From assembly GCA_000403215.2 (NCBI GenBank), contig KE159564.1:218635-282634 (forward strand): DNA of 64,000 bases, written 5' to 3'. Every line of letters starts with the position of its first letter. The stretch's first letter is position 1. The stretch is from Lachnospiraceae bacterium A4. GTDB lineage: Bacteria; Bacillota; Clostridia; Lachnospirales; Lachnospiraceae. Positions 9,480-38,748 of the stretch are shown piece by piece. The notes under the pieces were generated by a model, which saw nothing but the letters and a program-made list of their open reading frames with translations, had not been told where the DNA came from and did no database searches. The translations under genes were made by a program, and so were the position numbers.

Positions 9480-9545
9480 ATTGTATTATAGAATATAAAT
9501 TCTTGCATTTTATTTATGCATTAATCGGTAAATAAAAAATATTTA

Positions 9546-9574: not shown

Positions 9575-9630
9575 TTTTTGGTAAATAAATCAATGATGTA
9601 GTTGCTTATCAATTCGAGAGGAGATAAAAA

Positions 9631-9969: not shown

Positions 9970-10079
9970 TCCAACTGAAATTTATTATTTTGTATTAAAT
10001 GCCGAGAATTCTTATGGGTATTTTGGACATAAGATGCATCGGCATAAATCATGAGATCAGAAAGGAAGGATTTTATGAT

Positions 10080-11324: not shown

Positions 11325-11341
11325 GGTGGTGAGCGTGTTTG

Positions 11342-13504: not shown

Positions 13505-13529
13505 ATTTAGTCAGGAGGAAGAAAACAAA

Positions 13530-15101: not shown

Positions 15102-15111
15102 GGATGAATAA

Positions 15112-16486: not shown

Positions 16487-16517
16487 GATATATTTTATAA
16501 AAATAATGGGGTAAAAA

Positions 16518-18641: not shown

Positions 18642-18653
18642 GGAGGTAACGAT

Positions 18654-19448: not shown

Positions 19449-19488
19449 TTATATTTGTTTAAGCGATTACAAAGGGGAATACATATAG

Positions 19489-21360: not shown

Positions 21361-21380
21361 GAAAGGCGGTACATACGAAA

Positions 21381-23594
21381 ATGGCGTTATTTAAATCAAA
21401 AAAACAAGGTAAGGATAAGCGGCAGAAGGAACAGGACGAACAGCTCAGGGCTGCAAGGCGACCAACCGAATCTCTTGGAAGTGTATTAAGTGAGTCCGTG
21501 CCGGGAGCCGTTCTCGATATTATCCGGTCAAATTCTGCCTTTGAGCTTCCGGCAGACGAGGATGGAAATAAGCGGTATGTGGTGGCTACCCTCGATGTAA
21601 ATACAATCGGCGGACTGAATAAGAGGGCTGCGCGGTCCAACCCTGACAAGGGGCAGCTGATTGAATGCATTAACTGTGGGAATATTGAGGCGTATGTAAG
21701 TGCGGAGAGCATTGCTGCGGACAGGTTTGTCATTATTCCTACGGATAGGACAATGGAATCCCTTTCTGAATTTCGTTTTCTGTCTGATAAGGAACAGTTT
21801 GGCCAGTTCACGCCAACGGTCTGTGTTATTGACCAGAATGGCAGTATGGTATTTCAGGAGCTGCCAGATAGTGTTCCTTACGAGTGGTTTCATAGTATAA
21901 GCAGGGGAACTGTACAGGTATCAGATGCCGTTGGTGTGACTGGTTCTGAAGAACAGCCTGTGACAGATGATATTCTGTTCGGGGATGAAGATTCTGATGA
22001 GACTGGTGTGCAGCATCTAGGAACAGAAGCGGCCCAGAAGAAATATGAAGAAATAAATTTTGTGGAGACTGTAGAAGGTGCCCGGGAGACAGGCGGGGAA
22101 GATTTTTTGGAAAATATAAATATTGACATGGATGAACCTGATTCTGATGATGCGGATGATATCCAGTGTCCTGTCTGTAAAAATTACGTTAATCCTGAAG
22201 ATGAAATCTGCCCGTTTTGCGGCACTTATTTTTTGGAGGATATTGCAGGGGAATCTAAAGATACAGCCGGTCAGGAAAAAAATTTACAAGTACAGGAAAT
22301 TACGGATAAAGACGTAACCAGAGCAGTAGAACGTCTTTTTCATGCGGGAGACCTTGATCTTGAGATATCGGCAGAGCCTTTTGATGTACGCATCATTGGT
22401 GAAAACGGTTATGTTCCGATGATCGAAGATCGAGAGGACGGGTGGCTTGATTCCTATGTGACGCAGATGGTCAAAAATGCCAATGAAGAACTGCGTATAC
22501 TGCACCATAATAACCTTCTTAAATGCCGCCAGCGTTATCTTTGCCTGATGACAAATAATGCGGAGGATATCGCGAATAAGGTTGACTATCATAATGCATC
22601 CACGAATTTTTATAAGATGTATAAGATTTTTGAAGCGCAAAAAGAAGAAAAAAAGGATGCGCTGGAGGACCAGATTGCGCAGAAACGTGCCGTAATGGAA
22701 CAGGTTTGGAATGAAGAACTGGAGCGAATCAAGGCATCTGCAGCAATGGCGGCGGAACGTTCCTATATTGACAATCATGCAAAGGCGCATGAAACCGCTT
22801 CACGGGAAGTTGAGATAATGATGCATGACGAGGTCGAAAGGGAGCACCGTGAGAATCTTGTGAACCTGAATCAGCTCAGGAAAAATGAGGCTCGGAGGAT
22901 GTTGGACATAGCAGTGACAGAGACCCTTGAAGTAGTGGGGCAGTCGTATTTGGAAATGGTGGAAGGTGAGAATGCCAAGAGAACGGAGATCCTGTCACGG
23001 ATTGGTGCCTATGTTGATTCACATTTAAAAGATGCAGCAGCCCGGAATGCCGTTATTGCAGAGGCGCAGCGTCAGAAAGAAGAGGCAGACAGGGTTACTG
23101 AGGAATTCCAACGTAAAATGGAATCTATTTCAAATGACCATAAGTCAGCGTGCGATAAGCTCCATGATGAGTTGGATGCTGCGCGTTTACATGAGGAAAA
23201 CCTTATACGCGAATACAATCTAAAGCTTGGTGCGGAGTCTGACAGGTACAATGAACTTGAAGGCAGGTATAAAGAGCTCATGGATAAATATGTAAGCATT
23301 GACAAAGAAAAGTCAAAGGAATATGAAACACGCATTGTCACACTTGAAAACGACAGAAGAGCTGCTGAGGAGCATCTAGCACATGTTGATATCGTTCATA
23401 ACAAATTTAATAGGGTATCAGTTGCCGTGTGGATTTCAGTTGCCGTGGCAATGTTTGCGATTGGCATTCTTTCTGGAAATATAATCGGAAACAGGTCTTT
23501 AGGAAATAGGCAGTATTCAATATCTCTGACAGGAGCGTCTGATGAAATAGCAGGTGATACAGCTGGTGAACCAGAAAAATCTTCCGGAAAATAA
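21381..23594 (+). CDS. Zinc-ribbon and coiled-coil protein with C-terminal membrane anchor
   Basis: This 737-residue protein has an N-terminal domain of about 190 residues, an acidic linker, a CxxC-x15-CxxC zinc ribbon near residues 261-283 ('CPVCKNYVNP' and 'ICPFCGTYF'), a long coiled coil from about 400 to 680, and one transmembrane helix near 684-705. The short tail is outside. It starts 21 bases after the Clp-like ATPase and is probably co-expressed with it. It could be an adaptor that links the ATPase or relaxosome to the membrane channel. The family is not recognised. Confidence 0.55.
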   Translation: MALFKSKKQGKDKRQKEQDEQLRAARRPTESLGSVLSESVPGAVLDIIRSNSAFELPADEDGNKRYVVATLDVNTIGGLNKRAARSNPDKGQLIECINCGNIEAYVSAESIAADRFVIIPTDRTMESLSEFRFLSDKEQFGQFTPTVCVIDQNGSMVFQELPDSVPYEWFHSISRGTVQVSDAVGVTGSEEQPVTDDILFGDEDSDETGVQHLGTEAAQKKYEEINFVETVEGARETGGEDFLENINIDMDEPDSDDADDIQCPVCKNYVNPEDEICPFCGTYFLEDIAGESKDTAGQEKNLQVQEITDKDVTRAVERLFHAGDLDLEISAEPFDVRIIGENGYVPMIEDREDGWLDSYVTQMVKNANEELRILHHNNLLKCRQRYLCLMTNNAEDIANKVDYHNASTNFYKMYKIFEAQKEEKKDALEDQIAQKRAVMEQVWNEELERIKASAAMAAERSYIDNHAKAHETASREVEIMMHDEVEREHRENLVNLNQLRKNEARRMLDIAVTETLEVVGQSYLEMVEGENAKRTEILSRIGAYVDSHLKDAAARNAVIAEAQRQKEEADRVTEEFQRKMESISNDHKSACDKLHDELDAARLHEENLIREYNLKLGAESDRYNELEGRYKELMDKYVSIDKEKSKEYETRIVTLENDRRAAEEHLAHVDIVHNKFNRVSVAVWISVAVAMFAIGILSGNIIGNRSLGNRQYSISLTGASDEIAGDTAGEPEKSSGK

Positions 23595-23613
23595 ATTTGT
23601 CATATGATGAGTA

Positions 23614-23646
23614 CAGTGCAGAGAAGTTGTTCTGCACCTGTTTTTT
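23614..23646 (+). terminator. Terminator or attenuator before the coupling protein gene
   Basis: A hairpin with arms GTGCAGA (23616-23622) and TCTGCAC (23631-23637), extended by a few further pairs with one bulged C, is followed by a run of T at 23641-23646. It would end the transcript of the upstream operon or reduce expression of the coupling protein. Confidence 0.65.
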
Positions 23647-23722
23647 GCACACGATCAGGTGAAATCACGATTAAAGGTACATTAGGAACTTATTTTATTG
23701 AATGGGAGAGGATTATTTTCGG

Positions 23723-26700
23723 ATGGCAGGAAAAAAGAATAATTGGAAGTTTTTGAAGAACCAGAAATATGGAGAGAGTGTTAAAGGGCGCGATGTGTAT
23801 AATGACCAGCAGTTAAGGCGCGGTGTACTCAGGGATAGCCAGACTATGCTTTCAAGGAATGTTATCTCATTGTGTATTTCAATGCTGGCTGCTTTCTGCA
23901 TTTTCTTTTTGTGGAGTGCGGGTGTATCGGTTTTAGGGAATTATACATCTTCTGATTCTTATGGATTATTTTATGTATATTCATCAATGCAGATATATGT
24001 ATCTTTGGGCATTGGGTTTCTGGTATTTGCGGTTTTGCAGCCGTTTATGCGGAAAAATCTTGAAGCACAGAACATGCTCTGTACAACAGATGATATTAAC
24101 CAGTACACAGATGACCAGCACGTTGCCCTTCCAGAAGAACTACAGTTAAAATTTAATTATTTTCCGGATGCGGGAGCACACTCATCTGTCCAGGTTTCGT
24201 CGCTTATTTCACATATGGCACTTAGCAATAAGGGAATTAAAAAAGTGAAGATGGCAAAACGCTATGATAAAAATGTGTATGACAGAAACGGAGAGATTAT
24301 CGCATATAAAAACGAAATTATTTACGATGACGAAAATAATCCGAAATATATGGAAGTGCCCATGTTTGATACAGAATTTGCCGATGCCCTGTTTGAAGCA
24401 TCCGGTGCACCAGAGGAGGTACGAAAAACATATGATGTCAGAAAAATAAGCTATAATCCCGGCAATAAGAATAAGGACAAGCTGTGCGGAGAACAGTTTG
24501 TGAAAGTCCGAAGCAGCTCAACTGGAAGAAAGCGGATAATAAAGACAGGAAAATCATTGTATAATACTGTATCGGACCTTATTAACAATGATTGGTATAT
24601 CCCGGAATATGAACCGCAGCGTCCTGCAGGTGTTTATCTTGTTGATTCAGCTCCAGTCAATACAATGATACTGGCAATCACCAGGGCGGGAAAGGGACAG
24701 ACAATCATTGAGCCTACAATTGATATGTGGATGCGGGAAAAGCGGCTGAATAACATTCTACTGAACGATCCCAAGGGTGAGTTGCTCGTCAAAAACTACG
24801 TGCGTGGTACAGTGAGGGGTTATCAGATTGTGCAGTTTAACCTGATCAATGCAATGAAAACGGATATATACAATCCGCTGGGAATGGCAGCACAGGCAGC
24901 ACGTGAGGGAGATTTTACCAAATGTGCTGCATATGTGGAAAGTGTCGCTGAGGTTTTCTTTCCGCTTGAAGGCGCCGAAGATCCAGTATGGCCAAATGCA
25001 GCAAATAATGCGTTTAAAAGGGCTGCATTTGGTCTGATTGATCATTATCTTGAAGAAGAGAGGACTTACAGAAATGAATGCAGCAGCCGAATTGCAGCCG
25101 GCGAATGCATAGACCCGCAGACAATAGATACCCATATTGATGCAATGTGGGGCAGGGTCACGCTCTATAACTGTTATCAGATGTTTGTGCAGCTTGTCGG
25201 GAAGAAGATGCCAAATCCCGCACAGGTATTCGCAAATAATTTAAAATCAGGACAGTATGATTATCTTGATGATGATGAGATTAATGACCTTGCAAAAGAA
25301 GCGAACCGCAAATCTGTCCTCTGGAACGGTTCGTCGGAGCTTGACTGTCTCTCGTTGTATTTTAACGCAACGGATTATTTGCCAAAGAACACGATGAGGA
25401 CACTTGTCGGTAATATAAACAATTCACTCAAATCAATGGCAGGAGCCGACAAGATGATGGCATCTGTATATGGTATTGCAATAACAGCCATGTCTTTTTT
25501 TACAGACCCGACGATATCAACATTGACGTCAGGAACGCCTTCACAGACGGTTGACCTTGCCGGTCTGTCTTTTCCGCGACGCCTAGGAGTGAGGTTTCAT
25601 CCGGATTTTGTAAAAAGGCGGCACTATATCGGACTGCGGTGTATGTGGGATGCTTTTGAAGACGTTGCATTTAAAAAAAATATGGGAAATGAGTTCCAGC
25701 ATTCGGATATCGTGTCACGTGAGGGATGGGCGCGCTATTACTTTGACGGAAAATTTAAGACAGATACGGCATACATCAGGCTGCGGCTGACAAACGCTGG
25801 TACGGATGCCCTTGTACATGAATATTATTTTGTGTTTCATAAGGGATACCAGATATCGCTTGACGGGCGCACGTATGTGAAAGATCCCGTACTTGGGACA
25901 AAGATTGCAAAAAATGGGGTATTATATGAGCTGGTAAAGGACGATAAAACGGGCGAGTTCAAACCGGGGGTGACTGCTTTTAAGCGTAAACGGCTCCTTA
26001 CAGACAATAATAGTGCCATTGAAAATGTGTGGTATAAGGTGTCGGATGAATCCGTTCCCGTGATCACGCAGTCTTATGTGCGTTACTGTGAAAAACCAAA
26101 AATGATTTTTCTTGTGACGCCCCCGCATCTGATGAAATATGCAAAACTGATCCTCATACTGATTAAACAGCTCGTTGACATCAATTTTGACCAGTCCTAT
26201 ATGACAAAGCCGAATCAGAAGCCGCTTTATAAGACGAGGTATATGCTTGACGAGCTCGGAAACCTTAAATCGGAAGGACACGGAATATCCGGGTTTGAGA
26301 CGATGCTTTCTATTGGACTCGGACAGGACCAGCAGTTCACACTTGTACTCCAGACCTTACAGCAGTTACGGGAGGTATATGGTGAATCCGTTGACAAGAT
26401 CGTGCAGGGCAATACTTCTAATATCATATTCCTGAAATCTACAGATGACGAGATGTTACGAACGCTGTCAAATATGTCCGGAACCACGCACAGGTCATAC
26501 ATTGACCAGAAAACAGTGACCAGAGACATGGAAAAACTCCTGCTTGCAAACGAGGGGAAGGCGTCTTACATGATGCAGACAAAGGAGGTACCCGTGATTA
26601 GCTACAATGACATGATGTATATTGAGAAGAACAACAGTATGGTGTTTCGCGCGGGCGATTCACCAGTCTGGAACAGGAACGAAACAATATTACCCATGTC

Positions 26701-27541
26701 ATATAAGCTTTTTGAGAATACGATCAGGGTGCCGGGACGGGAATACTCTCTGCAGACAATACCAACACTGTCATCGGCAATGGATTTTGACCTCATGAAC
26801 AACCAGCCTGATTTCGATAAACTGCTGAATAAACGTATGGAACAGGCACTTATGGCGGAATCTGTCATGAAAAGTTATAATGCGGCATTTGGCTATGATG
26901 ATGATGACATACGGCGTCTTGATAAGGATATTTATGCAAATGACATCATGGACATGATCGATGCTGAATTTGCCCGCCAGAATACGGCAATGGATTTTGA
27001 CAATACTGCTGTGAGAAAGGAATCTATCAGTCTTTATGAAGTCGAAGAAGATCAGGAGATGCAGAAACAGATAAATGATATTCGAAAACAGAACGAGAAA
27101 GACGGAAAGAAAGTATATGCAGAAGGGCAGTTGTCTAGGGGGGATCTTATTAATGAGGCAGGAAAGGCGCGCCATGGATTTGATAATCTGTTTGCTGCTG
27201 TATTTGTAAAATTAAAAAAAGAATTTGCAAATGACAAATGCTTTTCGGTCATAGAGGATTCGCTTTATGGCAGCACAGGTACTGAAATGCCCTATATCGT
27301 AAAACAATCTGCAGAGGATATGGAGCTTCTGGCAGGAATGGTAAGCGATCCGACTGCGCGTGTTTTCGCTGATGGGGAGTTTGTGCAGGAAGAAATTGAT
27401 ATGTTTAGTGGCTACAGGGTTACGGATGAGTTTATCAGGTTTATTGCAGGTTTTGCTGGATGGGAAACGATTCTCGATGGAAAATTTGATGCTGCTGTGG
27501 CCGAATTTCTAAGAAAAGAGGAATATTCAGGTGCTGCGTAG
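23723..27541 (+). CDS. VirD4/TraG-family type IV coupling protein
   Basis: Coupling proteins are hexameric ATPases that deliver the relaxase-DNA complex to the channel. This 1272-residue protein has two transmembrane helices (about residues 46-68 and 80-100), a Walker A 'TRAGKGQT' with Gly323-Lys324, and a Walker B 'YMLDELGNL' with Asp843-Glu844. The long separation between them includes an insertion, making the protein about twice the usual VirD4 length. The C-terminal 250 residues are acidic and unrecognised. GGGAGAGGA at 23704-23712 supports ATG 23723; an ATG at 23702 lies in frame upstream. The Walker motifs look intact, unlike those of the VirB4-like protein. Confidence 0.88.
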   Translation: MAGKKNNWKFLKNQKYGESVKGRDVYNDQQLRRGVLRDSQTMLSRNVISLCISMLAAFCIFFLWSAGVSVLGNYTSSDSYGLFYVYSSMQIYVSLGIGFLVFAVLQPFMRKNLEAQNMLCTTDDINQYTDDQHVALPEELQLKFNYFPDAGAHSSVQVSSLISHMALSNKGIKKVKMAKRYDKNVYDRNGEIIAYKNEIIYDDENNPKYMEVPMFDTEFADALFEASGAPEEVRKTYDVRKISYNPGNKNKDKLCGEQFVKVRSSSTGRKRIIKTGKSLYNTVSDLINNDWYIPEYEPQRPAGVYLVDSAPVNTMILAITRAGKGQTIIEPTIDMWMREKRLNNILLNDPKGELLVKNYVRGTVRGYQIVQFNLINAMKTDIYNPLGMAAQAAREGDFTKCAAYVESVAEVFFPLEGAEDPVWPNAANNAFKRAAFGLIDHYLEEERTYRNECSSRIAAGECIDPQTIDTHIDAMWGRVTLYNCYQMFVQLVGKKMPNPAQVFANNLKSGQYDYLDDDEINDLAKEANRKSVLWNGSSELDCLSLYFNATDYLPKNTMRTLVGNINNSLKSMAGADKMMASVYGIAITAMSFFTDPTISTLTSGTPSQTVDLAGLSFPRRLGVRFHPDFVKRRHYIGLRCMWDAFEDVAFKKNMGNEFQHSDIVSREGWARYYFDGKFKTDTAYIRLRLTNAGTDALVHEYYFVFHKGYQISLDGRTYVKDPVLGTKIAKNGVLYELVKDDKTGEFKPGVTAFKRKRLLTDNNSAIENVWYKVSDESVPVITQSYVRYCEKPKMIFLVTPPHLMKYAKLILILIKQLVDINFDQSYMTKPNQKPLYKTRYMLDELGNLKSEGHGISGFETMLSIGLGQDQQFTLVLQTLQQLREVYGESVDKIVQGNTSNIIFLKSTDDEMLRTLSNMSGTTHRSYIDQKTVTRDMEKLLLANEGKASYMMQTKEVPVISYNDMMYIEKNNSMVFRAGDSPVWNRNETILPMSYKLFENTIRVPGREYSLQTIPTLSSAMDFDLMNNQPDFDKLLNKRMEQALMAESVMKSYNAAFGYDDDDIRRLDKDIYANDIMDMIDAEFARQNTAMDFDNTAVRKESISLYEVEEDQEMQKQINDIRKQNEKDGKKVYAEGQLSRGDLINEAGKARHGFDNLFAAVFVKLKKEFANDKCFSVIEDSLYGSTGTEMPYIVKQSAEDMELLAGMVSDPTARVFADGEFVQEEIDMFSGYRVTDEFIRFIAGFAGWETILDGKFDAAVAEFLRKEEYSGAA

Positions 27542-27650
27542 GTACAGATATCCTAAATGGCATGGTTTTTTTATTCATGTGGACAAAGAACTGTAGATAA
27601 ATAATCCACACATTTTGATTTCTTGCAGTTCCCAGGGGAGGAAGCAGTAA

Positions 27651-30600
27651 ATGATTACGATATGCAGTATAAGGGAGGTAAGACCTGAAGAACATGATGA
27701 GACATGGGCGATTGTACGCTCATATAAGAATGTCTCCACAAAAGTCAGACAGGTTGCAGACCTGTCCCCTTCATGGAATCTATTCTCGAAATACAGGGGA
27801 TTTGTTTCAGAAAACCGATGGGGAATTGATGCTTTTGAAGGGATATATCTTCCGCAATTTATCAGTGAAATGCAGTCGGGGCGTGCGGGAGACCTTATTA
27901 ATGAGCTGCGCAGGGCCGACAGGGAAGGCAGGGATATCTGCCTGTTCTGTTATTGCGCAGACGAAAGCCTGTGTCACAGAAGTATCATTGCGGGCATACT
28001 GCAGGGATATGGGTGTGATGTAAGGGGCGTAAGCAGTGATTATAGCAGATATTTTGATATGTATACAAATAAAAGGGAGTATGGGGAAGATATGGGTAGT
28101 AATGAAATGCGGACAGAACCAGCCAGATATACAAACAGTGAAACAGAGCAAAGGGAATTAAACAACCAGTTTGTGAGATATATCAATCCGCTCGTTTTTA
28201 ATGATAGTATTTTTCTGGCAAATGAATATATCCATGATCATGATGGAATGCCGCTTACAGTATCGCAATGCAAATACATACGGCAGTATCTCATGAATGA
28301 CCTATACGGCGATGTATTCCGGGAACTGGTATATAACATGTCGGAAGACCTTGATACCGACATGGATGGCATGGTTAACCTGTTTATGGGAGAAATGATG
28401 GACAGGATGTTTGACAGGGACGGAAGAGAAGGAATCCTTGAAACATATCTTAAAGAAAACAGGCTGTTGCCGGAAAAAGCAGAGTCCAGTCTTGCAGAAT
28501 ATGCAGATAAAAAAAATTTTACGGTTACAGACATGAATAAGAAATTGGACAGCATGAAACAGCAAAAAAACCTGCGTGCACTGGACGTTTTTGGTGTCTA
28601 CAGATATAAAGGGCAGGAAGTACAGGTAGCTGACCTTGATGTCACACAGGCATACCTTGAAAAGAATGCATATAAACAGAAAGCGCTTCTAAATCTGTCA
28701 GAGGAGGACAGGGAACAATATGAGCCTGTTTCTCTGTCCAGACAGTATTTTTTTGCCGGAACATATCCAATAGGTGATGAAGCTAATGGTAAAAAACTAG
28801 ATTATAATATTGCTCTTTATGAAAATAAAGATGATAGAATAATTCCGATGAACAGGATTTTTTATCCAAATATAAAAACACTTTCAAAAACTGATAAGAC
28901 CGGACTTTACAGATTACGCAGGTATATTGGTGCGGACAGTTATAATCAGCTTGCCCGACAGATTTCAAATAAGATTACAGATGAAGATCCTGTCATGAAT
29001 GATCAGGCCATCAGAAATGCCGTTACAATATGCCAAGATCTTGAAAGGCGCGGACTGCCTTTTACAATTGGAAAGGACAGCAAGGCCGGACAGTTGAAGG
29101 CAGCTGTATCCCTTGGAAAAAAGGATTCCATCGACATTAGGATTTTCGATTATGAAAATCCCAATTATGTGGGGCGCACTTTTAATGGGACGGCATCCTA
29201 TTTCCGATTTGCTTCCAAATCCTCCGGTACTGTAGGTGCAAAGTCTGACATATATTTTCCAAACGAAGAGGATGTTCTTGTGCTGCTTGCGCACAGTCTG
29301 GGCGAGCATCCGCAGACGCCGGAGCTTAAACCGGACGGTACGCATTTTATGGTGGGAGAAAACGGAGATGTCAGGCAGTATGATGGAAATACGTCGATTC
29401 CAGTATTGACGCGGAACAATGAACGTTACAATATGTCATACTGGTCCGCTGAAAATTCCAATACATTTTACAGACTCGCCCGCAATAATGATGGGTACAT
29501 ACAGCCTGTATATATCTATAATGAAGGATACAGCAGGGCAGGGACAGAAAACCCCAAATTTGAAACGCCTGATGATGCAATGAAATACATTAATGAGAGC
29601 ATAGAAATGGCAAAACAGAATTACCAGAATGTAACGCTTGGAACTGGGTTTTTGGAAAGGTCTGAGGTAACAGAGTCAGATTTTCCGGATTCTTATGTGC
29701 CTGACATCAGAAAGCTGCAACTTAAATACCGTGAATACCTTGATTATGATGATACATTGCTGCAGGAAGCTGGGGAATCAGATGAAACATTTTCACAGAG
29801 GCTGGAGGAATTCAGACAGGATGAAACGGCAGAACTGCCTGATTATGGGGAAAAACGGGCGGATATAGTTGGACACAGCAATGAGACAGTCCGCCTTCTG
29901 TTCGGACATACTGATGGTACGGGATCGGAGGATAATCCAATTACACTGAATGTCGCCGCCGTTGCCGAGTATTCCGGCGAGCGGGAAGCTGACCTCATTA
30001 CTGCAATGAAAGCCTGCGGCAGTGGTACAAAATTTGACCTGATGCAGACAGATGAATTTAATATGAACCGGATAAGGGAACTGCTTGCCGCATATGATGA
30101 TGATTCCGGCAGGTCCATATTGGAAAATGACACTTTATCACCATTTATGTCACATGTCAGGAACACAGTGCTTGATTCATTGGAGGCACAGGGAGTTGAA
30201 GTGTCCGGCTTGGATCTTGACCAGAATGGAATTATACGATATGAGGGCACGGTTGTAAATAAAATGCTGCACGATGGAGACACAGATCCGGAAACTAGGC
30301 AGATAACGGGATATATCGGGCAGATTTTTGAACCTGATGAGAGGGGCGTGATCGTGACACGGTACAATCATGATGATAACCGCGCAATCATTCCAAAATA
30401 TACTGCAACAGTGGAGAGACCTGATCCGGAGGAGAACCTGTCCCTGGAGAAACGGACAATATGCTGTGGTTACGAGGAGATGCTTGACCGTAAGATAAGG
30501 CTGAATATACATCGTGATTTTGCCGGACGGACATATGACTCTGATGTTAACACAACACAACTGAATGGTATTTACCGTGAACTGTATGCAGCAAAGATAC

Positions 30601-33600
30601 CAGCAGATTATATGGCATATTACCGCGCAAAGGGCATGGATGATGAATATATTAATGCTTTGATCAAAACCCAGAAATCAGTGGTTAGATACCCAACATC
30701 ATTTATTGATAATTCAACACTTAATACATGGTATGACTTGAAAAAAAGAAACTTTATTAATGATATAAATAAAGATGATTCTTCAGTTACGCTTGAAAAT
30801 GTCGCCATACTGAACGACTGTGAGGCGTTTGACTATTTAGCGACAGGAAATGCAAGGAATCAAGGAATTTTGCGTTATATGAGGGAACACGCATCTGTCA
30901 ACCCAGAAACAGGACACTTAGAGCCGCCCTACAATCCTGATGGGACAATCAATGAAAATGACAAAATGGCGCTGTTGAACCTGCCGATGTTCCGCTATAT
31001 TGATTACAATCCGGCTGATCGGGTAGTCATGGTGGTTGGTAACAGCATTGACTGTCTGCAGGTAGACAGGCAGACTGCTATAGCTCATATTACCCTTGAA
31101 GGATGGTGCATGGATGATGCTTATGTTATCTCTAGGGATTATGCGGAGCGCCACCTTGTTAATTCCGGCGATGCCGGGACAACAGAAAAATTAGATCCGG
31201 GCGTTATTCAGTCACATATCTGCGATCCTGATGGTTTTCTCATGACATCATGCGGTGAGGATGGGCAGGAATTTGTGCACTTTTATGGTCATAACTACCC
31301 GCTTGATAAAGTGAACAGCAGGTTTGGCAGACCAGAAAATGAGCAGACAAGGGAAGAAGTATGTGCTGGTTATATTAAAGAAGAACTTATTAAAAATGAT
31401 GTGGGACTGCGTCCGCTGATGGCAGGTGACAAAATCTGTGACCTTGGAGGTAATAAGGGAGTTATTTCACTTGTTGTTGACAGAACCATGTCATCGGATA
31501 CCGCAAAAAGGCTGAATCTGGAGTACGAAGTCGAATTATTTAAGATCAACAGGGAGCTGGAAGTGGTGGGAGCGCCTTTTACAGCTCCCAGCCGTATGAA
31601 TGCAGGTACAGTAAGGGAGATGATGGAAAATGCAAGAGAATTAAAGCTCCCAGACGGAACCGTGATCGAAGGCGGGATGGGTACGGCCAGTATGATTATT
31701 ACAGACAAGCTCGTTGATGAAAAAACGCATATTTATGATGAAACACATGGCGGAGGAAAGGGCAGAAATGCATCATCACAGTTTGCATGGCAACTTCAGG
31801 CAAAACACGCTGATACATTCATGCAGTTGATATATGGGCAGAATGACAAAAATTTCGGAAAAGTGCGTGAGCGTCTGATCGCGCTTGGATATGATATTGA
31901 TGAAAACAATTGTCCAGTAAAAGGATATTCACCGCACAGCATTACATTCAGTGGCGATTCAGAAGAGAAAGTCATTCATGAGACCAGGAACATTATTGAA
32001 ACTGGAGAGCCGGAAATTTACCCGTCAAAGGATGGCTTACAGAACCGGACAGACTTAAAAGAGGCAGTCAAAAAATTACAGGGTGAGTTATCACAAAAAG
32101 GAGGCTTTCTCCGGCTTCCGTTTGAGATTGAACTGGAATCAGGCGCAAAGACAGAGCCAGCCTGTGACGGAAAAGGGGGTTATCTTCTGCCTGTTCTTCC
32201 ACCAATGATGCGCGCGGACGAGACATATGATGACGGTTCAAAGATAACCCACGATTATACACGCAGATACCTTGGCATTGTGCGGCATGCACTTGATTAT
32301 AAGGCAAAAGAGGCGCAGATTAAAGAATATGCCCGGCTGATCAACAATGAACCTGATGAGGATGGAAATTACGGAGTCAGTAAAAAGGTTGCGGTAGAAC
32401 GAAAATATAAGGGCCAGATATTAAAAGGTGCACAAGTATACCGGTATAAAATAAGAAAACCAGTCAGTGAAAAGGATGATATACAAAAGAAAGCGCAGGC
32501 TGCATATAATGAGCTTGCAAAAAACCTGCATGATACTTATTTTGTTGGTAAGAAAAATGTATGCAAAACTGAATTAATGTGCAGGATGGTACAAAACTCT
32601 GCAACTGCAGTATGGTTCCCTGATCCGCGCCTGAAAATCGATGAATGCCGCATGGACGACGAGATGATGAAAAAGCTTCATTTGAAAGAGGGCGATAAAG
32701 CGCTCCTCTGGCGTGATCCGCTGTTGAGACCGGAAGGAGTTGCAGTACTAACAGTAAGGCGCTGTAATCCGGAAGACCAGCCCATTGTAGGCATTGCCGT
32801 TAATCCGGTAATAGACAAACGTTTTGACGGTGATTTTGATGGTGACAGTGTTGCGGTCTGCTCGCTCTCAGATGCAGTATTTATAAAGGATGTTGAAAAT
32901 GCAGACCGCCGCATCAACAGGCTGTTGAAAAGGATTGAGAAGATACAGGAAGGTGGTCTGGAAGATCAGGAAGGGCTTGAACGGCTCGAGATGCAGCTTT
33001 CAAAGGCAAAAGGAGATTACGACAGGGCAGGTGAAAGGCTGGCGTTTTTTAACAGTGCCAGGGACGAAATCATTGACAAATTCAGTGTCGTGAATACACT
33101 GACGGATCTAGCGGAGACACCTGATAATCCTAAAACACCTGAAGAAGTTGTGTTTGCTTTAAATTTTGGTCTTGATATTGCATCTGCAAAGGGCAGGATT
33201 CAGGAAAGCGGGCAGAAAGTCATGGTTCCTGATTCGGAAGGGAACATGACAGATGTTCTGGATCTTCCTGAGCTCGCGAAACAGGATATCATTGACGGAA
33301 ATAATGCAGCGGCGCTTGCAAATCTCAATATATATGTGCAGACATTATTCGGATATGCTGATGCATCAGATTATAATGACTACAGCCGGTGGGAAAATTA
33401 TTACGAATCGCAGAACCGTATGATTGTTGACCATAAGGCGAAAGGAAAAATGAAATCAATGGTAGAATGTGCGAAATATGCAAATACAGGAGTGACATTT
33501 GTATGTGATGGTGATGACCATGTTTATACTGCGGAGGAAATGAGCGAACGCATGGACAGTGACAAGAAGGCAATATTCCGCATCAATACGGCTGAGGGGG

Positions 33601-35129
33601 AAATAACGGATTACGGGGCTCCTGTTATTCATGTTGAAATTAATAATCCCAATCTGAGTAAGAAACAGAGAAATGAAATCATCCGGCGAAAAGATGAGAT
33701 GAAGGATATGATAAGGCAGGTACAGCTTGCAACAGCGATTAAGACAATCGGAACCGGAACTGCGGGGGCTTTTTCCCAAAAGGGTATCAAGATAACGCGT
33801 GACAATGAACCGCTTAATACATTGGAGATCACTTATGGAGCCACGCAGGGTATCCTGCAGGCAAAACATGATGCCGTACAGGCAGAACGGCTTTATACCA
33901 TTTTACGAGATACACTGCCTTCACTCTTAAAGGGAAAGCCCATTATGAATGATCCTGATAAGGGATGGATACCGGATACAGGGAATGGAGATAAAAGTCT
34001 CAGTAAGAGTGAATTTATACAACAGTATTATGATCTGTGCAATTCCCCGGATGGATTAAATTATAATGTCTGCAGGCAGAGGATTGAGAATCTTGCCAGT
34101 GTTCTTTATACTGTTGATGAGAGCGGGAAGGAGAAATTTATAAGTTTTTATGATGATGAATTTGCATCTAATCTTGACAGATGTGCATATCCAAAAGGGA
34201 ATGACAGCTTGAAAGTGATTAAGCAAATTGCAGAGCTGAATATGGAGCTGCCAAAGGATAAGCGTAATTCTATGTTTAACAGCAGAGCTGCAAAACAGTT
34301 CGTTCCAGATAAGGACAGTGCAAAATTTGAGCTGGGTGTAATGCAATGCACCAGTGATGTGTCATCTGATACTGAAAGATCTATAGAGAAAGAATCGAGT
34401 TCGGAAAAACATGCTGCTAAGGATAATAAAAATGTACAACAAAAGGATAATGACCATAGGGCTGGTAGAAATCTTGACAATCGTATACTGGTAATCGGGC
34501 CAACACCGGAAAAGTTGTATGGAAATGATAAAGACAGAAATACAATAGACAAATACAAAATGTTGACGCAGGAATTGAAAAGTTATGCGCAGAAACTGTA
34601 TGAGGATGGCTATCGTGAATTTGTTACGATCTCGGCGCCCGGGTACAACAAGCTTTTATTTGAGGCAGTTAACAGTTTGAAGGCAGAGCATCCCGGAGAA
34701 ATAAAGAATTTTGTCCTGTGCCCAGGTAAAGACTGTTATAAGGATTATACGGAAAATGAGAACCACCTGTTTGTATCAAAAGGAGTCAAAAAAATGATTG
34801 ATGAATCAGACAGGTTTATTGACGTATCTCAAAAGCTAAAAGGAGGAATGGACGAAGCTGTTGCAATTAGCAGGCACATATCTGTGATGTATCCGGAAGG
34901 CGGCAGTTCTTGGCATAAAAGGCGAGATGATGTATTATCGCGCTATATGCAGATTGCACTTAAATATGGAAATGACCTGAAACAGCATGAGTTTTTCCCA
35001 CAGGAAACAAATGCGTACAAAGAATATCATGACTTGGTGGGCAGACATGCAAGACTAAATAATATGGTTGCAGCTGATGCATACGAAGCAAATGCCAAAA
35101 ACAATGACAAGAATATGCAATATGACTGA
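27651..35129 (+). CDS. Giant single-chain two-barrel RNA polymerase-like protein
   Basis: This 2492-residue protein contains, in the order of a beta-beta' fusion, the signatures of cellular RNA polymerase. Beta-like: 'EGWCMDDAYVIS' (from about residue 1150; Asp1155-Asp1156 at the NFED position), 'GDKICDLGGNKGV' with Lys1261 and Lys1269, 'PSRMNAG' (Arg1315), then a 'GGMGTASMI..KLVDEK' region like the beta C-terminus. Beta'-like: 'FPDPRLKIDE' from about 1656 and the metal-binding 'DGDFDGD', with Asp1728, Asp1730 and Asp1732. The N-terminal 125 residues resemble DUF488, with the 'CYCADESLCHR' cluster. Residues of about 2280-2400 resemble YpsA/DUF1273 (SLOG), with 'LVIGPTPEKLYG'. The intervening 1000 N-terminal residues are unrecognised. 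Both catalytic Asp and Lys sets are intact, so nucleotide polymerisation is likely. Template, promoter and product are unknown. Confidence 0.88.
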   Translation: MITICSIREVRPEEHDETWAIVRSYKNVSTKVRQVADLSPSWNLFSKYRGFVSENRWGIDAFEGIYLPQFISEMQSGRAGDLINELRRADREGRDICLFCYCADESLCHRSIIAGILQGYGCDVRGVSSDYSRYFDMYTNKREYGEDMGSNEMRTEPARYTNSETEQRELNNQFVRYINPLVFNDSIFLANEYIHDHDGMPLTVSQCKYIRQYLMNDLYGDVFRELVYNMSEDLDTDMDGMVNLFMGEMMDRMFDRDGREGILETYLKENRLLPEKAESSLAEYADKKNFTVTDMNKKLDSMKQQKNLRALDVFGVYRYKGQEVQVADLDVTQAYLEKNAYKQKALLNLSEEDREQYEPVSLSRQYFFAGTYPIGDEANGKKLDYNIALYENKDDRIIPMNRIFYPNIKTLSKTDKTGLYRLRRYIGADSYNQLARQISNKITDEDPVMNDQAIRNAVTICQDLERRGLPFTIGKDSKAGQLKAAVSLGKKDSIDIRIFDYENPNYVGRTFNGTASYFRFASKSSGTVGAKSDIYFPNEEDVLVLLAHSLGEHPQTPELKPDGTHFMVGENGDVRQYDGNTSIPVLTRNNERYNMSYWSAENSNTFYRLARNNDGYIQPVYIYNEGYSRAGTENPKFETPDDAMKYINESIEMAKQNYQNVTLGTGFLERSEVTESDFPDSYVPDIRKLQLKYREYLDYDDTLLQEAGESDETFSQRLEEFRQDETAELPDYGEKRADIVGHSNETVRLLFGHTDGTGSEDNPITLNVAAVAEYSGEREADLITAMKACGSGTKFDLMQTDEFNMNRIRELLAAYDDDSGRSILENDTLSPFMSHVRNTVLDSLEAQGVEVSGLDLDQNGIIRYEGTVVNKMLHDGDTDPETRQITGYIGQIFEPDERGVIVTRYNHDDNRAIIPKYTATVERPDPEENLSLEKRTICCGYEEMLDRKIRLNIHRDFAGRTYDSDVNTTQLNGIYRELYAAKIPADYMAYYRAKGMDDEYINALIKTQKSVVRYPTSFIDNSTLNTWYDLKKRNFINDINKDDSSVTLENVAILNDCEAFDYLATGNARNQGILRYMREHASVNPETGHLEPPYNPDGTINENDKMALLNLPMFRYIDYNPADRVVMVVGNSIDCLQVDRQTAIAHITLEGWCMDDAYVISRDYAERHLVNSGDAGTTEKLDPGVIQSHICDPDGFLMTSCGEDGQEFVHFYGHNYPLDKVNSRFGRPENEQTREEVCAGYIKEELIKNDVGLRPLMAGDKICDLGGNKGVISLVVDRTMSSDTAKRLNLEYEVELFKINRELEVVGAPFTAPSRMNAGTVREMMENARELKLPDGTVIEGGMGTASMIITDKLVDEKTHIYDETHGGGKGRNASSQFAWQLQAKHADTFMQLIYGQNDKNFGKVRERLIALGYDIDENNCPVKGYSPHSITFSGDSEEKVIHETRNIIETGEPEIYPSKDGLQNRTDLKEAVKKLQGELSQKGGFLRLPFEIELESGAKTEPACDGKGGYLLPVLPPMMRADETYDDGSKITHDYTRRYLGIVRHALDYKAKEAQIKEYARLINNEPDEDGNYGVSKKVAVERKYKGQILKGAQVYRYKIRKPVSEKDDIQKKAQAAYNELAKNLHDTYFVGKKNVCKTELMCRMVQNSATAVWFPDPRLKIDECRMDDEMMKKLHLKEGDKALLWRDPLLRPEGVAVLTVRRCNPEDQPIVGIAVNPVIDKRFDGDFDGDSVAVCSLSDAVFIKDVENADRRINRLLKRIEKIQEGGLEDQEGLERLEMQLSKAKGDYDRAGERLAFFNSARDEIIDKFSVVNTLTDLAETPDNPKTPEEVVFALNFGLDIASAKGRIQESGQKVMVPDSEGNMTDVLDLPELAKQDIIDGNNAAALANLNIYVQTLFGYADASDYNDYSRWENYYESQNRMIVDHKAKGKMKSMVECAKYANTGVTFVCDGDDHVYTAEEMSERMDSDKKAIFRINTAEGEITDYGAPVIHVEINNPNLSKKQRNEIIRRKDEMKDMIRQVQLATAIKTIGTGTAGAFSQKGIKITRDNEPLNTLEITYGATQGILQAKHDAVQAERLYTILRDTLPSLLKGKPIMNDPDKGWIPDTGNGDKSLSKSEFIQQYYDLCNSPDGLNYNVCRQRIENLASVLYTVDESGKEKFISFYDDEFASNLDRCAYPKGNDSLKVIKQIAELNMELPKDKRNSMFNSRAAKQFVPDKDSAKFELGVMQCTSDVSSDTERSIEKESSSEKHAAKDNKNVQQKDNDHRAGRNLDNRILVIGPTPEKLYGNDKDRNTIDKYKMLTQELKSYAQKLYEDGYREFVTISAPGYNKLLFEAVNSLKAEHPGEIKNFVLCPGKDCYKDYTENENHLFVSKGVKKMIDESDRFIDVSQKLKGGMDEAVAISRHISVMYPEGGSSWHKRRDDVLSRYMQIALKYGNDLKQHEFFPQETNAYKEYHDLVGRHARLNNMVAADAYEANAKNNDKNMQYD

Positions 35130-35206
35130 TAATAGGTTCACCATCCATCCAGAAATTGAAATTGTAAACTGTATGGATGAGGTACCATGAAATGAAAGGA
35201 AAAAAT

Positions 35207-35713
35207 ATGGGGATTTTATACGAAACAGCGAGAGTGACACAACATAATACTAGGGAAGATGAATTTTCATTTAACAGGAGTCTTGAGATCAGAGACAGAA
35301 AGATCAGTAATGAGTTTCAGGGACAGAAAGCACAGATGTCTGATGAATGGATTCCAGAACCACCAGTTCATATAAGGGATTATAAGTCCATAGGTTCAGA
35401 TGTAAAAGAAGCACTTGAAAAAGCGGATCAGCTGGATGCAGAAAAGGTGCCGCCAGTGCCTGCTTATGTGCAGCCGGCATTAACTGATCCAAATGAAAGG
35501 GCAGTGCAGCAGCTCACTGTTCACCGGACTGAAGCTTATGGTTATTTCGATGAACTGGGAAAAAAATTAGGAAAGATTGCAAAAACGACTGAAACAAGGA
35601 AAGATGACAGATATGCTGAAGCACTGAGTGGAAAATTAGGCGCTGAACTTGCAAATGTAAATTCAGTTTCGGTAAGGGATGTTGAAAACACTTTTTATGA
35701 ATTATCAAAATAG
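35207..35713 (+). CDS. Small hypothetical protein after the polymerase
   Basis: This protein of 168 residues is mainly helical and charged, with no membrane segment. The frame extends to an ATG at 35177, but AAAGGA at 35195-35200 favours ATG 35207. It lies 77 bases after the RNA polymerase-like gene and 11 bases before the next one, so all three are probably co-transcribed. A small helical partner is what one would expect of an accessory subunit, but no family was recognised. Confidence 0.5.
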   Translation: MGILYETARVTQHNTREDEFSFNRSLEIRDRKISNEFQGQKAQMSDEWIPEPPVHIRDYKSIGSDVKEALEKADQLDAEKVPPVPAYVQPALTDPNERAVQQLTVHRTEAYGYFDELGKKLGKIAKTTETRKDDRYAEALSGKLGAELANVNSVSVRDVENTFYELSK

Positions 35714-35724
35714 GAGATTACAGA

Positions 35725-38241
35725 ATGTTGGGAGTCAGCAGGACAATTAACAATTTTAAACTGAATTATTCCCAGGCGCTAAGCCGTGCTGCCCTGGCAA
35801 AAGGTGAAACCACATGGCAGTGTCCGAACCATCCGGGCGGATATTTATACAGGAGTCCAGATGGTTCGGTGGGGCCACTCGCTGAATTTGAGAACCAGTT
35901 TAAGGGTTCCATGTATAAATTTTATGAGGATGACAGGAAAGTAAGCGGGTACAACAGGAAGATACATGAGCTTATCAGGAAAGGCGCTAAGCATGGTTAT
36001 ATGGTTTCTCTATCAGAAGAAGCAGCCCAGAATGTTTTGGAAAAACAGCCTGGTTTTCCACCGGAAAGGGTGGACAGGATTCCGGTGGAACTGTTAAAGA
36101 CAGGACTGGAGAATGGTGTTTTTGTCATTAAAGATCAGGAGAACCATGCCGTTGATGTACCTGTAGCTCCCGCTTGTAAATCTGATGTGGAATACATTCA
36201 TTTTGATAAACAGCGCCAGATGGCAAGAACAGCCGAACTGTTATGCGGTAAAAAACATAAATTAGCAAGGAATCCAATTTCCAGAAATTTAAACAACAAA
36301 AACCATGAACGTCTGCGGAAGGATGTTGATTTTATTGAAAGTGGAATGAATCCTGATATTGTCCGTTTCAATGAGAAATATGGCACCAGTATTGATACGC
36401 GCCTGCAAAATTATAACAAATTGAAGGACGGTCATATCCATGTAAACAGACAGCGGGTTATCAGTGAGGATTTTACAAAAGAAGATGAAGCATTTGCATT
36501 ATTTAAGGCCATTGAACATTTTAGTGTACCAAATAGGGATGAGCTGAGGGAATATTTTGATAACTTGCGCCAGTCTGCCAGTATGGATAAAAAGCAGGAA
36601 ATGAGACGGAAGAATTTACCGGTAGATACGCCCATGGAGATTCAGCAGAAGGAAAAAAATCCCAACAAAGAAAATCAGGATCAGGAAAAGAAAGACGGAC
36701 AGGGTAAGGCTGAACCATGGGATGACCTTATCCAGAAAGTCTGCCAGTTTTTTATTGATTATGCAAGAGATCCGGCCGAAACACTGAACCGGTTTATGGC
36801 GGAATATTCTGATGCATTACAAAATATCAGACACAATGAGGCCATTCCATACCATAAAGAGTTTCAAGAGCTGCTAAATTCAAGTGAAAAGTCGGTTGTA
36901 AAACATATTTCTAATGAACTGGAGTTTGCAAAACCATCAAAGGAGTATATAACACTTGATAAGTACCTTCGGGCAAAAGATAACCATATTGAAATATATC
37001 GTAGCTTTCTGTCACATGAGGATAATACTGATATTAAGTTTGTAGATATTGGGGGAAAGGAATTAGATATTAAAAGTGCTGCAGATATGGACAGAATAGA
37101 GATGGAGGCCTTGGTAGATTTGATTGACAGTGGAAAAATAAGTATGTCAGTGGATGGTGAGATTCTCGATGTGTTAACAAATGACACTTATATGGAAATC
37201 TGTCGTGATAAGGACATGATTTATGAATATGAAAAACAGAATTTACAACTACGGAAGGAAGAGTTAAATGCATTCTGCTCATTGAATGACAGGCAGAAAA
37301 AAGAGTATATTGAAAAGAACGGGATTGTCCCACATGTTATGAGAGAAGCATATCAGTATTCTTTCAATAAGGTTAATGCCATGAAGCATGGTAAGGATAT
37401 TACAAATGCGGCCGTGGAGCAGCTGGGACTTCCTTTTAATAAAGAAGAAACAATTTTGGATAAAAGAATCAATGCCTATCTTGCAGCACAACGTCTCCAT
37501 TATGAACATTACAACCATGAATTTGAGAAGGCAGCTGCATCGGGAGAACCCGTGACAGTCTATAATTACAAAAACAAGACTATGAACCCTGTAAAAATGC
37601 AGGAACTGAGTGCACTTAGTTCGACTGACAGGATGGCGCTGATTGACCTGATTGACCATGACCGAATTTTTATATATGCAGGGGACAGAAAGATAGAACC
37701 AATATTTGATAGATACACAAATCCGGAAAATTATAAGAAGGGCGGAGATTTTTATTTGTCAGAACTGGCTACAACAGAATTTAAGGCTCTGGCTGAACTA
37801 CATGCTGTGAGGGAAATTGATGATAAAATCAGAAGTCTGGATCACGCTCCTTCTGATCACATTTTAAAAAAAGAACTTGAAGCTGAAAAAAAATACAGGA
37901 AAGGCATAGCAGATTATCTAAATGGTGAAGATGTAAAGTGTACAGATACCTATCTTGTTTCGGCGAAATATTTAGGTATGACTAAAAAAGTAAATAATAT
38001 AGGAAATTTGAGTGAATACTATAAAAAGGATGGTGCGGATATACAAAGGATGATATCTGAACAGATGAAAAAGGGAATGGATAGGAATAAACAGCAGTCA
38101 GAAATGGGGCATAATCGTTCGGATATGGATATGGCATTCACACCAGGTCGGATCGCAAATGAAGCTCTAAAAATTTTAAGTGAAGGGCAGATTGAAGGAG
38201 ATGTTTTACATGCAGAAGAGTGTTCTCCATGTCTCCATTAA
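35725..38241 (+). CDS. Large hypothetical protein in the polymerase operon
   Basis: This 838-residue protein has no membrane helices. Residues of about 25-60 contain 'CPNHPGGYLYRSPDGS', which looks like part of a small folded domain. Residues of about 310-330 form a low-complexity Lys/Glu/Gln linker ('QQKEKNPNKENQDQEKKD'). The C-terminal half holds two related segments of the form 'MDRIEMEALVDLIDSGKI' and 'TDRMALIDLIDHDRIF', suggesting a repeated unit of about 200 residues. No family was recognised. It follows the polymerase gene closely and could be a partner in template or element-specific transcription. That link rests on gene order only. Confidence 0.5.
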   Translation: MLGVSRTINNFKLNYSQALSRAALAKGETTWQCPNHPGGYLYRSPDGSVGPLAEFENQFKGSMYKFYEDDRKVSGYNRKIHELIRKGAKHGYMVSLSEEAAQNVLEKQPGFPPERVDRIPVELLKTGLENGVFVIKDQENHAVDVPVAPACKSDVEYIHFDKQRQMARTAELLCGKKHKLARNPISRNLNNKNHERLRKDVDFIESGMNPDIVRFNEKYGTSIDTRLQNYNKLKDGHIHVNRQRVISEDFTKEDEAFALFKAIEHFSVPNRDELREYFDNLRQSASMDKKQEMRRKNLPVDTPMEIQQKEKNPNKENQDQEKKDGQGKAEPWDDLIQKVCQFFIDYARDPAETLNRFMAEYSDALQNIRHNEAIPYHKEFQELLNSSEKSVVKHISNELEFAKPSKEYITLDKYLRAKDNHIEIYRSFLSHEDNTDIKFVDIGGKELDIKSAADMDRIEMEALVDLIDSGKISMSVDGEILDVLTNDTYMEICRDKDMIYEYEKQNLQLRKEELNAFCSLNDRQKKEYIEKNGIVPHVMREAYQYSFNKVNAMKHGKDITNAAVEQLGLPFNKEETILDKRINAYLAAQRLHYEHYNHEFEKAAASGEPVTVYNYKNKTMNPVKMQELSALSSTDRMALIDLIDHDRIFIYAGDRKIEPIFDRYTNPENYKKGGDFYLSELATTEFKALAELHAVREIDDKIRSLDHAPSDHILKKELEAEKKYRKGIADYLNGEDVKCTDTYLVSAKYLGMTKKVNNIGNLSEYYKKDGADIQRMISEQMKKGMDRNKQQSEMGHNRSDMDMAFTPGRIANEALKILSEGQIEGDVLHAEECSPCLH

Positions 38242-38255
38242 TGCATGAATTATGA

Positions 38256-38284
38256 TTGATAAATGTATTTTCCTGTGCTAATAT
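38256..38284 (+). promoter_or_regulatory. Promoter for the HU-like gene
   Basis: TTGATA at 38256-38261, a 17-base spacer and TAATAT at 38279-38284 form a good sigma-70-type promoter. The start would be near 38291, about 38 bases before ATG 38329. The HU-like gene can thus be expressed independently of the long upstream operon. Confidence 0.6.
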
Positions 38285-38328
38285 TATTTCGTAAACAGCA
38301 TAATTATTTGAGAAAGGAAATGCATTAT

Positions 38329-38748
38329 ATGCCTAAAAGACCTAAAAATGAATATGGAAACTGGATACACCTTCTTTCTGAAACCTCAGCGGTTCGTGAA
38401 CTTCTTGCTATTGAGTTGGAAAATCTGCCGCAATATTGTAACACAGATCCGCTGAAAGAAGCAATTGTAGAATCTTCGGAAATTGGTGACAGGATAACAA
38501 GGAAGATTTTTGACACGTTTATAGAGCTGGTAGTCGTAAAGATTCTGGAATCGCCAAACAAAGAATTTTATGTACCAAATTTTGGGACTTTTTCAGTAAA
38601 GACACATAGGGGACATAAAATGAAGCTGAATCCGCGGGAGGAGAATGGAACAGTTGTAGATGTTCCAGATTATAAGATGCTACGGTTTAAACCAGATCCT
38701 AAGTTTAAAACCAGTGTCCTGATGCCAGATTCATCTTTGATAAATTAG
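38329..38748 (+). CDS. HU/IHF-family DNA-bending protein, extended
   Basis: HU proteins dimerise and bend DNA. The C-terminal 90 residues of this 139-residue protein match the family: a helix ending 'IFDTFIELVVVKIL', then 'VPNFGTFSVKTH' (the FGTF beta-turn), 'LNPREENGTVVDVP' (the arm with the conserved Asn-Pro at the intercalating position) and 'LRFKPDPKFK'. The N-terminal 50 residues are an extra segment absent from standard HU of about 90 residues. ATG 38329 is preferred, because AAAGGA at 38313-38318 is only a base or two from the alternative ATG at 38320. It could compact the element or assist the encoded polymerase or relaxase. Confidence 0.75.
   Translation: MPKRPKNEYGNWIHLLSETSAVRELLAIELENLPQYCNTDPLKEAIVESSEIGDRITRKIFDTFIELVVVKILESPNKEFYVPNFGTFSVKTHRGHKMKLNPREENGTVVDVPDYKMLRFKPDPKFKTSVLMPDSSLIN

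Follow-up and report, generated by a model that had tools for sequence, protein, structure and literature searches.

We examined a window of 64,000 nucleotides from Lachnospiraceae bacterium A4 (GCA_000403215.2, contig KE159564.1), the final 64 kb of the 282,634-base contig C38 in a genome of 6.96 Mb. One gene in this window (27651..35129, plus strand), an uninterrupted frame of 2,492 codons, encodes what is probably a DNA-dependent RNA polymerase dedicated to its element, reading the genes of that element from the element's own promoters. This reading draws on catalytic residues of both the beta and the beta-prime type in one chain, on the predicted fold and on the position of the gene next to virD4. 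What appears to be new here, judging from the sequences, is a two-barrel polymerase within a conserved conjugative transfer module, together with gene-start motifs that track the polymerase in two plasmid lineages. Searches of the open-licence literature listed no paper on a two-barrel RNA polymerase encoded by a bacterial plasmid.

The polymerase and its family

The frame has the place, strand and length (2492 residues) that a first-pass annotation had assigned to it, and the motifs named there all occur at the residues given: EGWCMDDAYVIS, GDK (Lys1261), GNKGV (Lys1269) and PSRMNAG (Arg1315), and further along FPDPRLKIDE and DGDFDGD (Asp1728/1730/1732). The protein begins with a DUF488-N3a domain (residues 12-119, 27684..28007; PF22751, E 7.2e-14, 52.6 bits against a Pfam gathering cut-off of 27). 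A beta-like core (residues 830-1359, 30138..31727) contains the GDK...GNKG lysine pair, K1261 and K1269 (31431..31457), which aligns with the same motif of the host RpoB. The beta-prime-like core (residues 1419-2220, 31905..34310) contains the DFDGD catalytic aspartates D1728, D1730 and D1732 (32832..32846), which align with NADFDGD of the host RpoC, and a trigger-loop-like motif, TQGILQAKH (residues 2065-2073, 33843..33869). Near the C-terminus lies a YpsA/SLOG-like domain (residues 2300-2374, 34548..34772; PF06908, E 2.8e-4, below the Pfam cut-off), which is present as a precomputed domain in three relatives of the protein. All of these features are on the plus strand.

Taken alone, the window protein is only faintly recognisable as a polymerase. 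The first-pass annotation had proposed a check with PF00562 and PF00623; both families match (E 0.0027 over residues 1254-1326 and E 0.044 over residues 1675-1736, respectively), but for the single protein both fall below the cut-off. An NCBIfam search gave zero matches, a PDB sequence search a single weak one (8h2n, E 0.11), and a PHROGs search one family without known function over the DUF488 region (8.6e-11) plus three marginal matches.

The family as a whole is more informative. A search with residues 950-2250 returned 49 proteins, query included, and one with the polymerase of the staphylococcal plasmid SAP020A returned 140, of which 120 were listed; PF00562 or PF00623 is precomputed in many family members. 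After two fragments were dropped, 47 of the 49 proteins were aligned, the query and several close relatives among them. K1261, K1269, D1277, R1315, R1688, D1689, P1690, D1728, D1730, G1731 and D1732 are identical in all 47. A profile built on these members (39 retained by the program) matched the host RpoB over the GDK-GNKG and PSRMN segment (E 2e-8, probability 95.3%) and the host RpoC over the segment ending at DFDGD (E 4e-10, probability 96.7%), each E-value being that of a single comparison, and the two matching segments occur along the chain in the order beta, then beta-prime. Judged from these alignments, the kinship of the family with RpoB and RpoC is beyond chance.

The trigger-loop-like motif is similarly well kept, with Q2066, L2069 and K2072 in 47/47 proteins and H2073 in 46/47, and the pattern TQxxLxxKH recurs in all nine polymerases that we compared (eight from plasmids plus the window's). 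Its placement on GTQLTMRTFH of RpoC was made by motif and forced alignment and is alone without statistical significance. We paired residue 1726 with N458 of E. coli beta-prime, which we take to be a sugar-sensing residue; it is D in 44/47 members and S or G in some plasmid members. The position that we assume to be equivalent to E. coli beta-prime R425 is R in all 47. Against two relatives, the ratio of nonsynonymous to synonymous substitution rates (dN/dS) is 0.05-0.08 over both polymerase cores, with dS at 0.7-1.2, near saturation; by this measure the cores are under purifying selection. The same nine translated proteins, eight plasmid-borne and the window's, are free of internal stops. From the sequence, we infer that the window protein polymerises nucleoside triphosphates.

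Structure prediction, in which the two halves were modelled separately, gave fold matches that extend over almost all of beta (36-1243) and almost all of an Rpb1-type chain (10-1418). The models place the catalytic lysine pair in a predicted beta-type barrel and DxDGD in a predicted beta-prime-type barrel; no PolD-type DNA polymerase is among the fold matches listed. The invariant residues, the profile alignment and the predicted fold of each half thus support the initial proposal of a single-chain, two-barrel polymerase with its catalytic residues intact. Many other proteins, mostly of 2,000-2,900 amino acids, carry several RpoB and RpoC Pfam domains per chain (P0139-P0169) and represent other fused polymerases.

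Similar to RpoB and RpoC, the window protein has the predicted fold over most of both subunits, the lysine pair, the arginines, DFDGD and the trigger-loop-like motif. It differs from them in being one chain, beta then beta-prime, with 12-17% identity in the VIA-align rows, in its additional DUF488-N3a and SLOG-like ends, and in having plasmid-borne relatives. YonO of Bacillus phage SPbeta is likewise a single chain distantly related to multi-subunit RNA polymerase; its published description gives it as about 100 kDa, phage-borne and without trigger-loop homology (PMC5467207). Measured against that description, the window protein, at 2492 residues, lies beside a conjugation module and has a conserved trigger-loop-like motif. 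The two barrels on one chain of the first-pass annotation are supported, but YonO and QDE-1, which it named for comparison, were rejected as the nearest kind: each half resembles an almost complete beta or Rpb1-type chain, and a trigger-loop-like motif is conserved, so that a fused beta and beta-prime core fits better. Carriage by phages or prophages, a YonO-like trait, was not seen either, with 13 plasmid records on one side and no full-length phage relative on the other.

Plasmid relatives and their promoter-like motifs

Among 72,556 plasmid records, polymerase relatives occur in 13: five from Staphylococcus, five from Lactococcus and one each from Streptomyces, Rhodococcus and Gordonia. Four different query proteins recovered the identical set, and in 13/13 records the gene is annotated as a hypothetical protein. 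An Arthrobacter relative is already listed as 'DNA-directed RNA polymerase' in one database entry, so the kinship has been caught by automatic annotation before. The closest named contigs are Lachnospiraceae metagenome assemblies, and in a same-order genome sample the polymerase turned up in 1/295, the window's own genome. The window VirD4 matches 809 plasmid records, the first 12 of which are 12 of the 13 polymerase records (1168 to 342 bits, against 123 bits for the 13th match). The exception is pJM4A, in which no VirD4 was present in the 42 kb examined. In the Streptomyces, Gordonia and Rhodococcus plasmids the genes follow one another as in the window (MobL, AAA, conserved gene, VirD4, polymerase), with extra genes interspersed; in the four staphylococcal plasmids examined, two genes separate VirD4 from the polymerase. 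The five Lactococcus polymerases are 99-100% identical to one another, and the four distinct staphylococcal ones 51-80%.

We found little sign of the family in phages. P0018 gave zero matches in 50,697 phage records at E 1e-5. The SAP020A polymerase matched 32 such records at E 0.01, covering at most 15% in the 20 listed, and the annotated ones are mostly RpoB/RpoC; no full-length relative was found among the phage records, nor any relative in two scans of viral contigs. A phage origin was therefore rejected on the PHROGs result (one DUF488-region family and marginal matches), the absent or weak and partial phage tblastn matches, and the viral contigs. As a separate observation, 12 C. difficile plasmid records (97-150 kb; H156-H167) match over 56 residues, 3% of the query; 11 of these 12 matches are annotated as RNA polymerase beta subunit and belong to a different plasmid-borne polymerase gene.

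Two groups of these plasmids carry repeated promoter-like motifs. In the Lactococcus plasmid pJM1A (NZ_CP016746.2), of which 172.6 of 182.6 kb was scanned, 52 places match the motif AAAAAATAATGGATAGTTTAAGTGgAAA with more than 11 bits, compared to 4-7 in five shuffles. Because this matrix was trained on pJM1A itself, the count of the exact core A[AT]GGATAGT is the fairer one: 21 copies compared to 0-4 in ten shuffles. For 25 of the 29 sites above 20 bits, an annotated start follows on the same strand no more than 150 nt downstream (median distance 23 nt), and distances down to 7 nt suggest that transcription starts inside the motif. The genes so preceded include the polymerase, virD4, the AAA gene, the VirB4-position gene, a topoisomerase and many without known function. 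Matches to the sigma-A hexamers average 8.17 of 12 at the motif and 8.22 in shuffles, and 1/29 sites reaches 10/12. BLAST of the motif against the plasmid records found 138 places in 75 records; the four best records are all polymerase-bearing, with 15 places each, and apart from three records taken up below, each of the remaining 68 has a single place (calculated from the total of 138).

pJM1A also has annotated genes for a PolC-type DNA polymerase III, a DnaB-like helicase, a second DNA polymerase, HU and exonuclease VII (L025, L026), which makes it an unusually self-sufficient replicon. The Lactococcus pan-plasmidome paper describes a novel conjugation cluster on the megaplasmid pMPJM1, and 'RNA polymerase' is absent from its main text (PMC6458302). 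That pMPJM1 is probably the record named pJM1A here, while the pJM1A of that paper is another plasmid.

The motif of the staphylococcal plasmids differs from that of Lactococcus. In four of them a hairpin (e.g. GTGGTTGC-ATA-GCAACCAC) followed by TAGAnAnnAATAAAAT stands upstream of presumed leading-region genes. When sites were picked by the downstream box alone, a hairpin of 6 bp or longer adjoined the box on its 5' side in 24/67, compared to 7/1,089 in shuffles under the identical test, although the box itself was defined after hairpin sites had been seen; this supersedes an earlier shuffle control (5/559) that used 6-bp arms only. The 24 sites are spread over the four plasmids as 8, 7, 7 and 2. 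Their stems are 7-11 bp long, with a loop of 3 nt in 19/24, and vary by compensating changes (GTGGTTAC/GTAACCAC, GTGTTTGC/GCAAACAC, ATGGCTGC/GCAGCCAT), next to an unrelated AAGTGCT/AGCACTT. In a mechanical count that includes some short frames, the longest downstream frame begins 24-41 nt from the box in 22/24 sites. A hairpin is directly 5' of the ssb gene in 4/4 plasmids (three annotated, one recognised by eye) and, by eye, adjoins the putative origin of transfer (oriT) in 4/4. Sigma-A hexamer matches are 8.1 of 12 at these sites and 7.8 in shuffles, with 1/24 reaching 10/12.

BLAST of the hairpin consensus against the same 72,556 records returned 16. The polymerase-bearing Staphylococcus records, five in number, take the top five ranks (11, 4, 6, 2 and 2 places); S. 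simulans plasmids come next, and each of the 11 lower-ranking records has a single place. In a polymerase-less S. simulans plasmid the lone hairpin copy (L032, 6001-6050) stands at a gene start and is possibly a remnant, or the plasmid may borrow the polymerase of another. Three or more places of either motif were found only in polymerase-bearing records, and repeated promoter-like motifs are thus tied to such polymerases in two plasmid groups. Staphylococcal conjugative plasmids are described as falling into three families, pSK41/pGO1, pWBG749 and pWBG4, in PMC13249265 and PMC10763498.

The transfer module and its surroundings

The polymerase gene follows directly on a gene for a VirD4/TraG-type coupling protein of 1279 amino acids (23702..27541; PF02534 1.5e-16, PF12696 1.1e-12). 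Upstream of this, all likewise on the plus strand, are a zinc-ribbon-like gene (21381..23594; Pfam zinc ribbon marginal) that holds the same place between AAA and VirD4 in the Streptomyces, Gordonia and Rhodococcus plasmids, an AAA (Clp-like) ATPase conserved in the module (19489..21360; PF07724 2.1e-36), a MobL relaxase (16518..18641; PF18555 4.2e-37) and a tail-lysozyme-type cell-wall hydrolase that is likely part of the transfer apparatus (11339..13504; PF18013 4.2e-16). Two genes further left were labelled by inspection: a membrane gene (3119..3997) with relatives in two staphylococcal plasmids (E 9e-24) and a gene at the VirB4 position (4031..5887) with staphylococcal and Lactococcus relatives (E 1e-78 to 1e-37) and no Pfam match. 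No Walker A motif was seen by eye in the latter, and the transfer ATPase of this module may be unusual. Downstream of the polymerase lie a module gene without a Pfam match (35725..38241; 64% identical in L014) and an HU-type DNA-binding protein (38263..38748; PF00216 6.7e-8), both on the plus strand.

A stretch of about 35 kb, 3710..38697 in the window (C38 222,344-257,331, plus strand), is common to a second contig, G295:C481, in seven blastn matches of 75-84% DNA identity. To the right of 38697 the two contigs are unrelated (blastn, E 1e-10); the left edge coincides with the end of G295:C481, and the module may extend further left. That two contigs unrelated to the right of it have the stretch in common indicates that the polymerase belongs to a conserved transfer module. 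A MobL relaxase and a VirD4 coupling protein, the pair that we looked for in a MobL conjugative element, are both present, and the host element is likely, from its gene content, a DNA-transfer element. The neighbouring genes thus agree with the first-pass annotation, which had assigned the polymerase to an element with a conjugative-transfer module.

Contig C38 is likely a plasmid or chromid, because a Rep3 replication initiator (3..1019, plus strand, with its start upstream of the window; PF01051 3e-10, PF21205 5.5e-8) and genes that look by eye like ParA and ParB lie near ~215-218 kb, where the guanine-cytosine (GC) skew switches sign. No end overlap that would indicate circularity was found. 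The contig holds two runs of N (1375 and 940 bases) and a gene resembling an NAD-dependent DNA ligase by eye (191560-193587, L011). At the far end of the window, the block 44852-63087 has a higher GC content (0.47-0.51 from 48 kb on) and genes for VWA, a weak TssD/Hcp-like match, DnaJ, two FHA, PP2C and two phage-baseplate-hub (VgrG-like) proteins; it resembles a contractile injection or type VI secretion-like system. Before it, on the minus strand, a BlaR1-type M56 peptidase is paired with a penicillinase-repressor-type regulator (42889-44481).

Proposed roles of the polymerase

If the polymerase is the reader of the pJM1A and staphylococcal motifs, the element would make the enzyme and the enzyme would read the element through its own promoters at gene starts. 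In pJM1A, where the motif lies upstream of the polymerase gene, this would close a positive loop and act as a self-reinforcing switch, and the enzyme would turn on much of the plasmid independent of host sigma-A signals. In the staphylococcal plasmids, hairpins upstream of presumed leading-region genes suggest that the enzyme serves establishment in the recipient; in that region and by the putative oriT they would stand where a polymerase delivered with the single strand is needed. The one hint of such delivery into recipients is the location of the gene near virD4. By extension the polymerase would also read genes in the window's element, in which no repeated motif was found.

It is tempting to go further and compare these elements to phage N4, whose virion RNA polymerase is injected, reads hairpin promoters and has a T7-type fold, according to PMC4496689 and PMC5512222. 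The staphylococcal hairpins, placed just upstream of presumed early genes, may be analogous to N4 early promoters, while the window protein is predicted to be two-barrel rather than T7-type and its relatives are plasmid-borne. In the fullest form of this scenario, conjugative elements of Firmicutes and Actinobacteria would send a two-barrel polymerase through the type IV channel, hairpin promoters would form on the incoming single-stranded DNA, and leading-region genes (ssb and likely anti-defence genes) would be transcribed before the second strand is made, independent of host RNA polymerase, as a plasmid counterpart of the injected N4 enzyme. We regard this as possible but somewhat doubtful.

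The incoming strand could also be a template for priming. The first-pass annotation had offered a transcriptase or a primer-making polymerase; since the relatives' plasmids carry repeated promoter-like motifs at gene starts, we favour transcription as the main job and disfavour primer-making. In the latter case a short RNA would start complementary-strand synthesis on the incoming single strand, with no transcription for protein. The known conjugative polyvalent proteins are giant, multidomain primases that act on transferred single-stranded DNA, and the same source reports RNA polymerase modules only from N4-like phages or prophages (PMC5512222). The window protein resembles these polyvalent proteins as a giant multidomain protein of a transfer element and departs from them as a two-barrel polymerase in conjugative plasmids. 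A primase would also suit the position of the staphylococcal hairpins, next to the putative oriT and within what is presumed to be the leading region. Yet the motifs stand at gene starts in coding orientation, at the distances given above, and a full beta/beta-prime core with a trigger loop would be unneeded for a primase, which makes this alternative quite improbable. A decaying or exapted polymerase without a catalytic role, serving as a structural or regulatory DNA-binding protein, would account for the Pfam matches below cut-off and for the long N-terminal extension; with the catalytic residues kept in 47/47, a dN/dS of 0.05-0.08 and no internal stop in nine proteins, we give it hardly any credence.

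The motifs might instead be promoters or operators for the host RNA polymerase, working with a plasmid activator or sigma factor, while the single-chain polymerase does something else. The Frpo hairpins in the F-plasmid leading region are read by the host sigma-70 polymerase via -35/-10 elements in the folded strand (PMC11541004), and the staphylococcal hairpins are likewise upstream of ssb and other leading-region genes. In the staphylococci, however, there is little sign of -35/-10 elements and the plasmid carries its own polymerase. Sigma-A hexamers are slightly above shuffles at the hairpins (8.1 vs 7.8 of 12) but not at the pJM1A motif, only 1/24 and 1/29 sites reach 10/12, and the multi-copy motifs track polymerase records. 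A gene on the window's contig that by eye resembles a sigma-70-type factor (C38 202734-203270, minus strand, L012) could be counted in favour of host transcription, which we nevertheless consider unlikely.

Several points weigh against a polymerase that reads its own promoters. The evidence on motifs rests on relatives with about 25-28% identity to the window polymerase, not on the window's element: searches with differing thresholds found no motif at many gene starts in that element, contig C38, G295:C481 or pGKT2, a few 14-mers present three times being the repeats of C38; in the window's element, gene starts showed no recurrence of the hairpin motif. With Lactococcus polymerases that are 99-100% identical and a pair of similar S. 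aureus records, the co-occurrence of motif and polymerase amounts to few independent events; plasmids could have a motif in common by descent, or through a plasmid-encoded activator of the host polymerase. pJM4A, the fifth of the Lactococcus records with 6 places, has the same BLAST score as two polymerase-less records (2 places each), one of which, pJM2A, has a topoisomerase/XerS stretch in common with pJM1A. The training of the matrix on pJM1A and the late definition of the staphylococcal box, noted above, belong here as well. On the structural side, Foldseek whole-model TM-scores are low (at most 0.32 among the rows listed) with a root-mean-square deviation above 13 Å, so the fold match holds part by part and not as one rigid body.

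To our knowledge, bacterial plasmids are generally held to depend on the host RNA polymerase. If a dedicated polymerase is indeed at work here, some conjugative elements run their own transcription programme, and self-activation of the element and its escape from host control during establishment in a new cell become open to test, as does the working of a two-subunit catalytic core as one chain without alpha, omega or sigma. The Lactococcus relatives, on plasmids of a dairy bacterium, would offer a harmless experimental system for this, and an enzyme that needs a short, strict promoter could be useful as an orthogonal tool.

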